Below are positions 3 to 5,363 of a DNA stretch of 43,526 nucleotides, one piece after another. A program made the translations under genes and the position numbers. This DNA is from Bacillota bacterium (GTDB taxonomy: Bacteria > Bacillota > TC1), in assembly GCA_024635955.1 (NCBI GenBank), contig JAGXHX010000063.1, forward strand, positions 1 to 43,526. The letters run 5' to 3'. The notes below the pieces were generated by a model. It was not told the DNA's origin. It was given only the letters and a program-made list of their open reading frames with translations, and made no database searches. The stretch's first letter is position 1. The number at the start of each line of letters is the position of its first letter.

Positions 3-581
3 ATTGAGCTCAATGCAAAGTCATTAGCTCTCTATGCAAGTATGTGCCAGGAATCCGGACTAGTCCCAGTCGTTGAGCCTGAAGTTCTAATGGAAGGTGA
101 ACATACGCTTGAGGAGTGCAGTAAGGTTACGGAAGAAGTTTTAAAAGAAGTTTTTAAGCAACTCCAAATACAAAATATTAATCTAGAGGGTATAATTTTG
201 AAGCCTAACATGGTGCTTCCGGGTTTGGACTGTCCCTTTCAGGTAACAGTGGATGAGGTAGCAGACGCTACAATTAATTGCTTTCTGAAAGTCATACCTA
301 ATAACGTACCGGGGATTGCTTTCCTATCTGGAGGACAGTCCTCTGAACTTGCCTCAGCTCGCTTGAATGCCATGAATGTCAGATTCAAATCTAGACTGCC
401 ATGGGGATTGTCCTTTTCATTCGCCCGTGCTATTCAGCAACCTGCTTTGAAGATTTGGCAGGGTGAAGAAGAAAATGTTTTGGCGGCGCAACAAGCGCTG
501 CTTCATAGAGCTAAGTGTAACTCTGCTGCTCGCCGTGGTGAATACAATGATGTACTGGAAAAAGAAATAAATGAAAACTAA
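3..581 (+). CDS. class I fructose-bisphosphate aldolase, 5' end outside window
   Basis: Frame stays open upstream of the listed ATG to the window edge (IELNAKSLALYASMCQESGLVPVVEPEVL); motifs VPVVEPEVLMEGEHT, LKPNMV, FLSGGQSSELASARLNAMN and WGLSFSFARAIQQPAL are typical of class I FBP aldolase. Confidence 0.93.
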   Translation: MELNAKSLALYASMCQESGLVPVVEPEVLMEGEHTLEECSKVTEEVLKEVFKQLQIQNINLEGIILKPNMVLPGLDCPFQVTVDEVADATINCFLKVIPNNVPGIAFLSGGQSSELASARLNAMNVRFKSRLPWGLSFSFARAIQQPALKIWQGEEENVLAAQQALLHRAKCNSAARRGEYNDVLEKEINEN

Positions 582-626
582 TATCAGACTACTTATCTAT
601 TTAGTCGAATAGCTATAAGTTGAGAA

Positions 627-1667
627 ATGAGCGTGGTGATAATGACTCTTATTAAAAATCAAATACCTCTTTATCCCCTTAAATTTAAACCAATTTATGA
701 ATATAAGATTTGGGGTGGTCGGAATTTATCCCAACTACTCTCCGAACCTTTGCCAGACGACGGCCAGATTGGAGAGGCCTGGTTACTCAGTGATCGGGAT
801 GTTCATCCCAGTCGTGTCGCCGAAGGACCCCTTAAAGGATTGACTATTGCTCAATTAATGGAGCAGTACCAAGACCATATGATGGGAGTATTAGCTCGTA
901 ATTATGAGAAATTCCCACTCCTTTTGAAGTTCCTCGACGTCCATAAGATGCTTTCGGTGCAGGTCCATCCATTAGACAGACAGACAGATAATATTCCTGA
1001 AGGAGGACACGGAAAAACTGAAGCATGGATTGTTTTGGATGCTGGTCCTGAAAGCCGCATATATGCTGGTTTGAAACCAGGAACCACTGAGAAGGATCTT
1101 CGGCAAGCACTTAAAAATGAATCGGTAGCAGACTTTATTGCAAGCTTCAAGCCGAAACCCGGTGAAGGTTTCTTTATACCCGGAGGGACTGTACACTCCC
1201 TTGGCAAAGACGTTTTGGTATTCGAAATTCAGCAAAACAGTGATATCACATATCGTCTGTATGATTGGAACCATATTGACTTAAAAACGAGAAAACATCG
1301 AGCACTGCAGATTGAAGAGGCAATTTCGAGTATTGATTTCGATCAAGAAGCAGAAGGGCCGGTAGTTGGAAAGACAGAGTCCACAGTGCCAGTTCTGCGT
1401 GAGAAGATCTTTGACTGCAAGTATTTTAAATTGTGGCGAATACAAGGAGAATTACCATATATAGTCGTTAATGATGGAAAACCTCGTATTTTAGTGTGTG
1501 TTGCAGGCAGAGGTCAATTAGAATATAAGGGTGTTAATTATGCTCTTGAAAAAGGTGAAATAATGCTTTTGCCAGCGATAGTCGGAGCCTGTACTTTTAC
1601 ACCAAGTAGTGCTGTTAATCTATTTGAAATTGCATTACCAGAATCAGACTCGGAGGTGAACAAATAA
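627..1667 (+). CDS. manA: mannose-6-phosphate isomerase, class I
   Basis: WGGRNL, GEAWLLSD, LLKFLDVHKMLSVQVHP, GKTEAW and FFIPGGTVHSLG cupin metal-site motifs; may start at the internal ATG (MTLIKN). Confidence 0.93.
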   Translation: MSVVIMTLIKNQIPLYPLKFKPIYEYKIWGGRNLSQLLSEPLPDDGQIGEAWLLSDRDVHPSRVAEGPLKGLTIAQLMEQYQDHMMGVLARNYEKFPLLLKFLDVHKMLSVQVHPLDRQTDNIPEGGHGKTEAWIVLDAGPESRIYAGLKPGTTEKDLRQALKNESVADFIASFKPKPGEGFFIPGGTVHSLGKDVLVFEIQQNSDITYRLYDWNHIDLKTRKHRALQIEEAISSIDFDQEAEGPVVGKTESTVPVLREKIFDCKYFKLWRIQGELPYIVVNDGKPRILVCVAGRGQLEYKGVNYALEKGEIMLLPAIVGACTFTPSSAVNLFEIALPESDSEVNK

Positions 1668-2422
1668 TGAAAAAACTCATAGTTTTTGATCTAGACGGGA
1701 CGATGGCTTTAAGTAAATCTTCTCTTGATAACGAAATGTCAGTATTGTTATATGATCTTCTCAGGATAGTCAAAGTGGCTGTAATTTCGGGCGGTGACTG
1801 GCCGCAATTTAAAAAGCAACTACTCTCAAATCTACCCAAGGATAAAGTCCTTGAAAATCTATACCTTCTTCCTACCTGTGGAACAAAATTTTTCCAATAT
1901 ACAGAAGAATGGAAAAAGCTCTATTCAGAAGATTTCACTGTTGAAGAAACCGAAAAAATCATAATTTCTCTTAAAAGAGCGCTTGATGTAACTGGCTTTA
2001 AACCTGAAAAGATCTGGGGAGAAGTTATTGAAGATCGTGGTAGTCAGATAACCTTTTCCGCATTAGGTCAACAGGCTCCCTTGGAAGCAAAAGAAAAATG
2101 GGACCCGGATTTCACAAAACGGAAAAAAATCAAAGGAATTCTAGATACTTATATTCCAGGTTTTTCCGTCCGAATGGGTGGTACAACATCTATTGATATC
2201 ACCAAGTTGGGCATTGACAAAGCTTATGGAATTAGAAAGCTGAAGGACATTCTTGGCATTCCAATAAAAGATATGATTTTTATCGGCGATGCCCTTTTCC
2301 CAGGAGGGAACGACTATCCAGTAAAAGAAACAGGTGTTGTTTCTATTCCAGTTATGGGTCCTAATGAAACCAAACTAATTATTCAGACAATTATCGCCTG
2401 TTTAAATAACGATTTGTCATAG
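1667..2422 (+). CDS. HAD-superfamily (IIB) phosphomannomutase-like protein, eukaryotic PMM type
   Basis: FDLDGTMA HAD motif I, ISGGD, and IFIGDALFPGGNDYPVKETG resembling the GGNDxEI motif of eukaryotic PMM1/PMM2; start overlaps the manA stop. Confidence 0.8.
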   Translation: MKKLIVFDLDGTMALSKSSLDNEMSVLLYDLLRIVKVAVISGGDWPQFKKQLLSNLPKDKVLENLYLLPTCGTKFFQYTEEWKKLYSEDFTVEETEKIIISLKRALDVTGFKPEKIWGEVIEDRGSQITFSALGQQAPLEAKEKWDPDFTKRKKIKGILDTYIPGFSVRMGGTTSIDITKLGIDKAYGIRKLKDILGIPIKDMIFIGDALFPGGNDYPVKETGVVSIPVMGPNETKLIIQTIIACLNNDLS

Positions 2423-2471
2423 TTAACTAATTTGTGAATACACTTTTCACAGCTAAAGAAAGGAGCTAATT

Positions 2472-3581
2472 ATGAGTGAATTTATATTAAATCGTCTAGG
2501 AATTATTATGAAATCAGAACCGGGAAATCCTCAGGAAGTCGAAGGTGTTCTTAATCCTGCGGCTATTCGTGGACCTGATGGTGAATTGTATCTTTTTCCA
2601 AGAATAGTTGGTAAGGGAAATTATTCCCGAATCGGTATAGCCAAGGTTCTGTTTAATAAGTCTGGTGACCCATACGCTGTTAAGCGTTTGGGTATCGCCT
2701 TAGAACCGGAAGCCGATTATGAACTGCGACCCGATGGCGGTGGATGTGAGGACCCTCGTATTACATTTATGGAAAAACTTAAGTGCTATATAATGACTTA
2801 TACTGCATTTTCTTCCCAAGGCCCTCGAATTGCCATAGCTATCTCAGATGATTTATTCCACTGGAAGCGACTTGGTCTTGCAACCTTTGATCCTTATCAA
2901 GGTATCGATTTTGTCCATGTGGATGATAAAGATGCCAGTATTTTTCCCATCCCAATCCCTAACCATAATGGTAAAATGCAATTGGGTCTAATCCATCGCC
3001 CACTATTTCCAGGTACTCGTCCTGATGAAACTTCTCATGATGCCAAACCCAGAAAGGTTGATATTACTCATGAGAGCATCTGGATTTCATACTGCCCGAT
3101 ACCGACTATTTATGATAACTCTTTTCATATTGGTCTTTTTAACTCACATCACCGGTTGGCAACTCCAGTGATGCCCTGGGAGCGTCTTAAAATAGGTGGT
3201 GGAACCCCACCAATACTGACAAAACACGGTTGGTTGATCATTTATCACGGAGTAGGAGAAATAACAGAGTCAAATGACAACGAAAAAAAACGTTTACGTT
3301 ACTCAGCCGGGGCAATGATACTCTCTAAGGAGCACCCACAAATGATTCGCTATCGTTCTTCGGATCCGATTCTTATTCCAACGTTGTCAGAGGAACGTAA
3401 AGGGACAATTGAAAACGTAGTTTTCCCCACAGGTATCGACCAACGTCTCGATATTGATCAGCCAGACCGTTTCGATGTATATTATGGAATGGCTGATAAC
3501 CTAATTGGCGTAGCACGACTAGACTTACCGGATTTTTTACCGGAGAAAAGAGAAGCAGACCCTCCAAAAGCAAAGGTTTAA
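2472..3581 (+). CDS. glycoside hydrolase family 130 (beta-mannoside phosphorylase-like)
   Basis: NPAAIRGPDGELYLFPRIV, GGGCEDPRIT, IDFVHVDDKDASIFP, IGGGTPPILTKHGWLIIYHGV; SD aaaggag upstream of ATG. Confidence 0.88.
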   Translation: MSEFILNRLGIIMKSEPGNPQEVEGVLNPAAIRGPDGELYLFPRIVGKGNYSRIGIAKVLFNKSGDPYAVKRLGIALEPEADYELRPDGGGCEDPRITFMEKLKCYIMTYTAFSSQGPRIAIAISDDLFHWKRLGLATFDPYQGIDFVHVDDKDASIFPIPIPNHNGKMQLGLIHRPLFPGTRPDETSHDAKPRKVDITHESIWISYCPIPTIYDNSFHIGLFNSHHRLATPVMPWERLKIGGGTPPILTKHGWLIIYHGVGEITESNDNEKKRLRYSAGAMILSKEHPQMIRYRSSDPILIPTLSEERKGTIENVVFPTGIDQRLDIDQPDRFDVYYGMADNLIGVARLDLPDFLPEKREADPPKAKV

Positions 3582-3677: not shown

Positions 3678-3917
3678 GTGCATTATCAATCTAAAACAGC
3701 AATAATTTATTTTTATACCAAAATGTTTGATATGGTATTCTTCTTTAAAAACACCGTAAATCTTATGAACGCAGTTTACGGCTTGTTTATGACACCACTT
3801 GGATGGGGTTGGGCACTATTCGTCTGGGGCTATGCACTAGTCTGGTTCCTTATTAATAATCAGCTAAAAGTGTTGGCATATAAAATTTTTGATTTTAAAA
3901 AATTAAAAATAAATTAA
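3678..3917 (+). pseudogene. C-terminal remnant of a P-type H+-ATPase
   Basis: VYGLFMTPLGWGWALFVWGYALVWFLINNQLKVLAYKIFD resembles the extreme C-terminus of bacterial/archaeal plasma-membrane-type H+-ATPases; no rest of the gene is present. Confidence 0.6.
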
Positions 3918-3919
3918 AA

Positions 3920-3965
3920 ATAAGATACGGTAATCGATTTAAATCTATCGATTACCGTATCTTAT
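3920..3965 (-). terminator. Intrinsic terminator of tRNA-Leu (19-bp perfect stem, 8-nt loop)
   Basis: ataagatacggtaatcgat / atcgattaccgtatcttat; on the minus strand it is followed by a T-rich tract. Confidence 0.75.
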
Positions 3966-3966
3966 A

Positions 3967-4050
3967 TGGTGCGAGGAATGGGACTTGAACCCACACGATG
4001 TTACTCACACGCCCCTCAAGCGTGCGCGTCTGCCATTCCGCCACCCTCGC
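3967..4050 (-). tRNA. tRNA-Leu (anticodon GAG), CCA encoded
   Basis: Reverse complement GCGAGGGTGGCGGAATGGCAGACGCGCACGCTTGAGGGGCGTGTGAGTAACATCGTGTGGGTTCAAGTCCCATTCCTCGCACCA; acceptor stem GCGAGGG/TTCCTCGC region, class II variable arm, GGTTCAAGTCC T arm, anticodon loop CTTGAGG. Confidence 0.95.
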
Positions 4051-4154: not shown

Positions 4155-5363
4155 ATGAATATCAAAGGAAACGCTATCATCGCCCAGGGAGGCGGACCTA
4201 CTGCAGTAATTAACCAATCACTAGCAGGAGCAGTTATAGAAATGAAAAAACATAAGGAAATAACTGCAATATATGGCGCACTACACGGAGTAAGAGGCAT
4301 AATTGAAGAAAACTTTCTCAACCTGACTAACGCTTCAGAACAAAACCTCGAAGAGGTAGCCCTCACACCATGTGCGGCACTACTGTCAACCAGAGATAAA
4401 CCAGACCAAAAATATTGCGAAAAAATATTCCAAGTCTTTAAAAAATACAACATTAGATATTTTTTCTATATTGGAGGAAATGACTCTTCTGATACAGTAA
4501 AACTAGTAAACGAATACGCAGAAAAGGAAAACTACGAATTCAAAGCTTTCCATATACCAAAAACAATAGACAACGATCTAGTTATAAACGATCATACCCC
4601 AGGCTTTGGTTCAGCAGCAAGATTCGTTGCTCAAGCCTTTATGGGAGTAAACCTGGAAACAAAAGCCCTAAACGGGATTTACATAGGCATTGTCATGGGC
4701 AGACACGCAGGCTTTCTAACAGCAGCATCAGCTTTAGGGCGAAGAAATGAAGAAGACGGACCACACCTGATTTATCTACCAGAAAGGTCCTTTAACATAG
4801 ATCAATTCTTAAAAGATGTGGCGACAGTTTACAACAGATTAGGACGTTGTGTTATTGCCGTTTCAGAAGGAATAATAGATGAAGAAGGCATACCAATTGC
4901 AGCAAAACTAAAAACCAACGTGAGCAGAGACTCACATGGCAACATAGAACTTGCCGGTGGAGAACTTGGAGACATGCTAAGCAAAACAATAAAAGAAAAA
5001 CTAAAGGTCTCAAGAGTCAGAGCTGACACTTTCGGTTATCTGCAAAGAAGCTTCCCCGGAAGTATTTCAGATACTGATCAAAAAGAAGCCAGACTAGTAG
5101 GAATGGCAGCAGTACAATTTGCCATGATGGAAGAATACCAAAGTGGGTCAGTAATACTTGATAGAATAGGGGAATACGAAATCCAATATACACTAACCCA
5201 ATTAGAAAATATTGCTGCCAAAACTAAACATATGGCTGATGAATTCATCAATGAACAAGGGAACAACATAACCCCTGCCTTCATCAAATATGCTGAACCA
5301 CTAATAGGAACAGATTTTAAAAAGGCAGTTTCCTTAGATGCACCCTTAGTAAAAAAGATATAG
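4155..5363 (+). CDS. 6-phosphofructokinase, diphosphate-dependent type
   Basis: QGGGPTAVINQSL, IGGNDSSDT (Asp where ATP enzymes have GGDGS) and PKTIDND (Lys where ATP enzymes have PGTIDND) support PPi specificity. Confidence 0.92.
   Translation: MNIKGNAIIAQGGGPTAVINQSLAGAVIEMKKHKEITAIYGALHGVRGIIEENFLNLTNASEQNLEEVALTPCAALLSTRDKPDQKYCEKIFQVFKKYNIRYFFYIGGNDSSDTVKLVNEYAEKENYEFKAFHIPKTIDNDLVINDHTPGFGSAARFVAQAFMGVNLETKALNGIYIGIVMGRHAGFLTAASALGRRNEEDGPHLIYLPERSFNIDQFLKDVATVYNRLGRCVIAVSEGIIDEEGIPIAAKLKTNVSRDSHGNIELAGGELGDMLSKTIKEKLKVSRVRADTFGYLQRSFPGSISDTDQKEARLVGMAAVQFAMMEEYQSGSVILDRIGEYEIQYTLTQLENIAAKTKHMADEFINEQGNNITPAFIKYAEPLIGTDFKKAVSLDAPLVKKI

Follow-up and report, generated by a model that had tools for sequence, protein, structure and literature searches.

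A co-conserved aldolase, mannose-phosphate, and GH130 gene cassette beside a tRNA-Leu gene in a Bacillota genome, with a possible role in beta-mannoside phosphorolysis

Gene content and conservation of the cassette

The window analyzed here is a 43,526-nucleotide stretch at the very start of contig C7 in the draft genome (1.44 Mb, 77% complete) of a Bacillota bacterium. Positions 3 to 3581 hold four plus-strand open reading frames (ORFs) in tandem, which encode a class I fructose-bisphosphate aldolase (FBA), the mannose-6-phosphate isomerase ManA, a phosphohexomutase related to eukaryotic phosphomannomutases (referred to here as PMM), and a GH130 protein predicted to release mannose-1-phosphate (M1P) from beta-mannosides (Table 1). 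A preliminary description, made from the DNA letters, had read the same four genes, and ORF calling together with profile searches confirms them. The FBA gene is incomplete, with its 5' part beyond the contig end, and no other class I FBA was matched in the draft genome. The ManA and PMM genes overlap by a single base, the final one of the ManA stop codon.

Among 85,000 species genomes scanned, 201 encoded relatives of this GH130 protein, and all locus counts given below refer to the best 80 of these 201, which are 63 to 73% identical to it across nearly the full length. Upstream of GH130, and always co-directional with it, PMM is found in 69 of the 80 loci, ManA in 49, and FBA in 30. Of the 75 loci whose available upstream sequence reaches 900 bp or more, 65 have PMM, and the gap between PMM and GH130 has a median of 36 bp. 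As a control, 19 other GH130 loci from the relatives' genomes (∼30% identity, ∼1.5 kb of flank on each side) were compared, and none contained PMM, ManA, or the phosphoketolase gene (XFP). Because these genes recur beside GH130 relatives in about eleven phyla with both order and strand preserved, the arrangement is not due to chance, and we conclude that FBA-ManA-PMM-GH130 is a genuine co-conserved unit. The preliminary description had tied its own reading in advance to such co-conservation, which these counts bear out. The figure of about eleven phyla is an upper reading; the submitters' genome titles give ten groups, some possibly misassigned (Acidobacteriota, Verrucomicrobiota, Bacteroidota, Planctomycetota, Pseudomonadota, Bacillota, Myxococcota, Ignavibacteriota, Armatimonadota, and Actinomycetota). 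Peat, fen, and bog sources are frequent among these titles, and named carriers include Singulisphaera acidiphila, Silvibacterium bohemicum, and Nitrobacter hamburgensis.

The wider neighborhood was defined by ORF clustering and profile searches of the related loci. Energy and carbon metabolism is represented by XFP (32 loci), acetate kinase (AckA; 21), RpiB (12), and transaldolase (TAL; 11), pumps and phosphate metabolism by PPK2 (18), an H+ P-type ATPase (15), N-type ATPase beta (14; a label based on the leading position of atpD and on neighbor order), and histidine phosphatase (14), and stress-type functions by PRC-barrel (12) and YflT-like (11) genes. Transketolase (TKT), zwf, and PGI genes are found in few of the 80 loci. 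At least one of XFP, AckA, FBA, TAL, RpiB, and TKT is present in 37 of the 48 long loci. The commonest order in other phyla is AckA/TAL/PRC-XFP-RpiB-FBA-ManA-PMM-GH130-P-ATPase.

In the related loci, the full-length H+ P-type ATPase gene (TIGR01647, 1,071 bits for the protein of locus L047) lies just downstream of GH130. When the full ATPases of loci L022, L047, and L026 were used as tblastn queries, only their C termini matched the window, immediately after GH130 (Table 1). This pump stump is absent from the preliminary description. We read the cassette in the window as truncated, with its core genes intact.

Table 1. Features of the cassette and its flank (ORF calling and searches within the window)
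Feature	Position	Strand	Evidence
Class I FBA, C-terminal 192 residues	3-581	+	PF00274, E 2e-72; NF033379, 255.6 bits
ManA, class I mannose-6-phosphate isomerase	627-1667	+	TIGR00218, 126.1 bits (cutoff, 116.2); PDB 1qwr, E 6e-45
HAD-IIB phosphohexomutase (eukaryotic-type PMM/Lactococcus-type alpha-phosphoglucomutase relative)	1667-2422	+	PF03332, 46.7 bits (cutoff, 22.4)
GH130, predicted cytoplasmic beta-mannoside phosphorylase (M1P forming)	2472-3581	+	PF04041, 121.7 bits (cutoff, 26)
Remnant, C-terminal ∼55 residues of plasma membrane-type H+ P-type ATPase	3723-3917	+	tblastn, 59 to 77% identity
Perfect 17-bp inverted repeat, probable terminator, between cassette and tRNA-Leu	3922-3963		Sequence reading
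tRNA-Leu(gag), bounds variable site, outside cassette	3967-4050	-	ARAGORN
Pyrophosphate-dependent phosphofructokinase (PPi-PFK), PRK14072 subfamily	4155-5363		471 bits

The tRNA-Leu site and the probable mobility of the cassette

The tRNA-Leu(gag) gene adjoins PFK in the five nearest relatives, and the content of this junction varies. GH130 and the mutase were not found in four congeneric genomes or in one further member of the family. Congener G002 carries TAL-PRC-RpiB at the junction, congener G004 carries a PRC-barrel gene (whose match includes a single in-frame TAG), and no cassette genes are present there in congeners G001 and G003. The sequence just past the tRNA, with a similar inverted repeat, is common to the window and G002 (locus L105). 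Mis-assembly of the window at the tRNA was considered and is unlikely, given the similar repeat and the TAL, PRC, and RpiB genes at the same site in G002. Since G002 retains upstream genes and the window retains downstream genes of the usual order, the two probably represent one cassette that has been differently eroded. PPi-PFK is kept in all ten relatives searched, including congeners that lack GH130 and PMM, and it is an ordinary core gene outside the cassette. This conservation means that it is not evidence for the role of the cassette, and its use in the preliminary description as support for carbon storage carries little weight.

Carriage on conjugative plasmids is seen in two cases. A conjugative plasmid of N. 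hamburgensis X14 has the order AckA-glk-(beta-PGM+GH65)-PMM-GH130-XFP, with two phosphorylase-mutase pairs beside XFP, and a conjugative plasmid of Bradyrhizobium BTAi1 also bears the GH130 gene. On plasmid 2 of strain X14 (L134:11969-15235), the HAD protein of the beta-phosphoglucomutase (beta-PGM) type is fused to the GH65 domain and adjoins PMM-GH130-XFP. Matches suggesting phage carriage were limited to fragments of <30% identity among the matches listed. In the GH130 tree, phyla are intermixed in several supported clades and branches are long (0.83 for the window protein), a pattern that is in keeping with horizontal transfer but is not proof of it. The GC content of the cassette (0.37 to 0.43) is mildly higher than that further along the window (0.32 to 0.36); because the PFK region also has a GC content of 0.39 to 0.40, composition alone does not prove transfer. 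No integrase was identified in the part of the island on the contig, whose far end lies off it, and tRNA-targeted integration at tRNA-Leu is unproven. Taken together, horizontal spread among about eleven bacterial phyla would be the best explanation for the distribution of the cassette.

Predicted activities of the GH130 protein and the mutase

The AlphaFold model of the GH130 protein (pLDDT, 88.9) has as its best fold match Teth514_1788, a 1,2-beta-oligomannan phosphorylase (TMt, 0.84; 30% identity), followed by Teth514_1789 and other GH130 proteins. All top fold matches are GH130, and the protein combines the profile match with the propeller fold of this family. Nine residues (N28, R53, E93, D94, K153, R176, K240, G242, and D342) are invariant in all 81 GH130 sequences aligned. 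N28, D94, and D342 correspond to the mannose-binding Asn and two Asp residues of the -1 subsite, equivalent to N28, D92, and D281 of the -1 subsite in Teth514_1788 (PMC4264767). E93-D94 forms the GH130_NC pattern, which Teth514_1788 and Teth514_1789 bear and yet are phosphorylases (PMC4264767). The position of Glu268, a catalytic residue of the hydrolase BT3780 (PMC4599007), is occupied by Gly242 in the alignment, the numbering of which was checked via the shared Asn74. K240 aligns with R/K of Teth514_1788 and Teth514_1789, and visual inspection places R176 at the LHRR motif. Of the catalytic Glu pair of hydrolases (Glu227 and Glu268), the alignment covers Glu268, and two of the three basic phosphate-binding residues are accounted for in this way. 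The invariant K153 aligns, in 5a7v and 9fj8, with the lysine equivalent to Lys199 of BT3780, the determinant of beta-1,2 specificity (PMC4599007), and is a predictor, not proof, of this specificity. The N terminus, MSEFILNRLGIIMKSEPG, has no stretch resembling a signal peptide by eye. Assignment as a cytoplasmic mannoside phosphorylase rather than a hydrolase is well supported by these features, though not proved, and the substrate is most likely beta-1,2-linked. The M1P route of the preliminary description is supported, in agreement with Gly242, K153, and a fold nearest to a beta-1,2-oligomannan phosphorylase.

The best solved relative of the mutase is the Lactococcus alpha-phosphoglucomutase (alpha-PGM; 4bnd, E 1e-44), and human PMM2 is next (E 5e-15). 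The catalytic D8/D10, R124, and a PMM-like S175-x-D177 are kept in all 62 mutase sequences compared, and the sequence would allow either PMM or PGM activity.

Further GH130-like genes were seen among the loci. A Paludibacter locus (L035:17394-18614) has a second, distant GH130-like gene (∼30% identity) ∼6 kb from the cassette GH130. Three further GH130 loci from the phylum of the window (L003, L005, and L018) have a GT4-like match, and the GH130 matches in L005 and L007 to L009 lie in open frames of ∼1,200 amino acids that are possibly GT4-GH130 fusions.

Phosphorolysis, storage, or salvage

We propose, with a probability of about one in two, that the genes form a transferable cassette for the phosphorolysis of an internal beta-mannoside that feeds a phosphoketolase-acetate route to ATP. 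Using phosphate, GH130 would convert its substrate, a beta-mannoside or an oligomannan with most likely beta-1,2 linkages, to alpha-M1P, which the HAD mutase would convert to mannose-6-phosphate (M6P) and ManA to fructose-6-phosphate (F6P), no ATP being spent. XFP would then cleave F6P to acetyl-phosphate and erythrose-4-phosphate, acetate kinase would yield ATP, and FBA, transaldolase, and RpiB would recycle the carbon skeletons. The ATP could be used by proton or sodium pumps or buffered by PPK2. Activities of this kind are well known for these types of enzyme. The gene identities, their co-conservation, the conserved active site, the fold, and the common tRNA-Leu site are observed directly; the substrate, its linkage, the direction of flux, and operation as one pathway are what we infer. 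Because the partners include XFP, AckA, TAL, RpiB, PPK2, and ion pumps, none of which figures in the preliminary description, mobilization for ATP is favored over a role in deposition only. GH130 is reversible, so the same genes could also lay down mannoside when sugar phosphate is plentiful, and a reversible storage role is possible but unproven.

The draft genome itself encodes XFP on contig C43. There (L122:1-12507), several GGDEF/HD-GYP sensor-type ORFs and a KatG-like fragment precede XFP, after which the contig ends without a further gene. The possibility that this XFP belongs to the absent upstream half of the island was weighed and rejected; congeners hold XFPs of 73 to 87% identity elsewhere, and it is probably a native gene.

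Storage was the reading of the preliminary description, in which deposition of a reserve similar to mannogen is the main job, with F6P converted through M6P and M1P to a beta-mannan and GH130 serving both to assemble this polymer and to degrade it afterward. The conserved M1P gene set with a phosphorylase-type GH130 makes a mannan reserve plausible, as does the fact that Teth514_1788 extends beta-1,2-oligomannan from M1P in vitro (PMC4264767). Glycogen phosphorylase was not found in the draft genome, and a neighboring mannan-uptake system, which the preliminary description held would, together with a purely catabolic GH130 subfamily, speak against storage, is not apparent: no SusC/D, ABC transporter, or mannanase is among the 25 commonest of 131 neighbor families (111 neighboring ORFs). 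Other observations weigh against deposition as the main job. Intracellular phosphate usually pushes phosphorylases toward breakdown, no primer or dedicated synthase was seen, the partners XFP, AckA, and pumps suggest mobilization, and the GT108 enzymes are only distant fold relatives (MPT-2; TMt, ∼0.6; E 8e-9). We regard a reserve chiefly for deposition as a plausible but less likely reading, and mobilization into phosphoketolase fermentation fits the wider neighborhood better. The suggestion of a capsule operon lacks support, as no polysaccharide export or glycosyltransferase set was seen. The expectation that the gene set does not need GDP-mannose agrees with the draft genome, in which no full-length GMP_PMI-type gene was found at the cutoff.

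Salvage of external beta-mannosides through a transporter encoded elsewhere, with GH130, PMM, and ManA feeding central metabolism, would match what most phosphorylases of the GH130 family are known to do (PMC8950772, PMC4264767), and a 40%-identical Streptomyces homolog lies in an ABC sugar-uptake operon. We judge this somewhat less likely still: sugar-transporter matches among the 25 commonest families of the 111 neighboring ORFs are few (3 Sugar_tr and 2 MFS_1), no GH26 mannanase was found in the genus or in the draft genome, and the cassette is carried on a plasmid of a nitrite-oxidizing lithotroph. On the Streptomyces sp. strain NBC_01727 plasmid (L136), the homolog occurs with an ABC sugar transporter, a LacI regulator, a Gfo/Idh oxidoreductase, GH13, and PMM/PGM. 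A stress module, in which GH130 would make or recycle a small beta-mannoside as a compatible solute against salt, acid, or desiccation, could account for the PRC-barrel, YflT, USP, RaiA-like, and H+ and N-type pump neighbors but appears improbable, as carbon metabolism partners outnumber stress genes and no known mannosyl-solute synthase was identified.

Several observations weigh against phosphorolysis into the phosphoketolase route. Each accessory gene is found in a minority of loci; in the draft genome XFP is encoded at a great distance from the cassette, and congeners without GH130 share it; and loss of the P-type ATPase from the window may mean that the unit is decaying. The mutase is overall nearer to the Lactococcus alpha-PGM than to PMMs, which leaves its sugar uncertain. 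We found no member of this GH130 clade with a measured activity, and identity to characterized enzymes is only ∼30%; the Streptomyces uptake operon makes a catabolic ancestry possible, and the negatives for the genome as a whole rest on a 77% complete draft.

To our knowledge, salvage of plant, yeast, or gut glycans is almost the only role described for GH130 phosphorylases, and the cassette suggests an overlooked bacterial carbon store or an ATP-free entry route to fermentation. A broader and more tentative proposal, which we think doubtful as a whole, is that about eleven phyla share a mobile module for survival. In it, a mannogen-like store of beta-mannan or beta-mannoside would undergo phosphorolysis and then be consumed by a redox-neutral phosphoketolase cycle, yielding acetate and the ATP needed to power proton or sodium pumps. 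If true, each mannosyl unit could give as many as three ATP in the absence of respiration. No paper was found that joins XFP to this GH130 cassette or describes a bacterial mannogen; coverage of subscription journals was limited, and this absence is weak evidence.

Among characterized systems, Teth514_1788 of Thermoanaerobacter (PDB 9fj8 and 9gph) shares with the window protein the GH130_NC Glu-Asp, Asn28, the -1 site aspartates, the beta-1,2 lysine, and the lack of a glutamate at the Glu268 position. It differs in being only ∼30% identical and by an extra segment of ∼25 residues ahead of the ESIWISYC motif; the Teth514 genes have an ABC transporter, GH5, and genes for GDP-mannose as neighbors (PMC4264767) rather than PMM, ManA, or XFP. 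The preliminary description had attributed Leishmania mannogen to GH130-type proteins, but the enzymes belong to GT108, a separate CAZy family (PMC8950772). Leishmania GT108 (PDB 6q4x) shares the five-bladed propeller and beta-mannoside chemistry via M1P; it has no sequence match to the window GH130, its fold match is far weaker than those to GH130, and GDP-mannose use is not indicated for the window cassette. The Lactococcus lactis alpha-PGM and eukaryotic PMM share the HAD-IIB fold and catalytic residues with the cassette mutase, whose clade has S-x-D where 4bnd has T-x-N. The bifid shunt and cyclic nonoxidative glycolysis share XFP, AckA, transaldolase, RpiB, FBA, and in some loci transketolase with the cassette, which differs from them in that entry would be by beta-mannoside phosphorolysis and in its ties to H+ and N-type pumps and PPK2.

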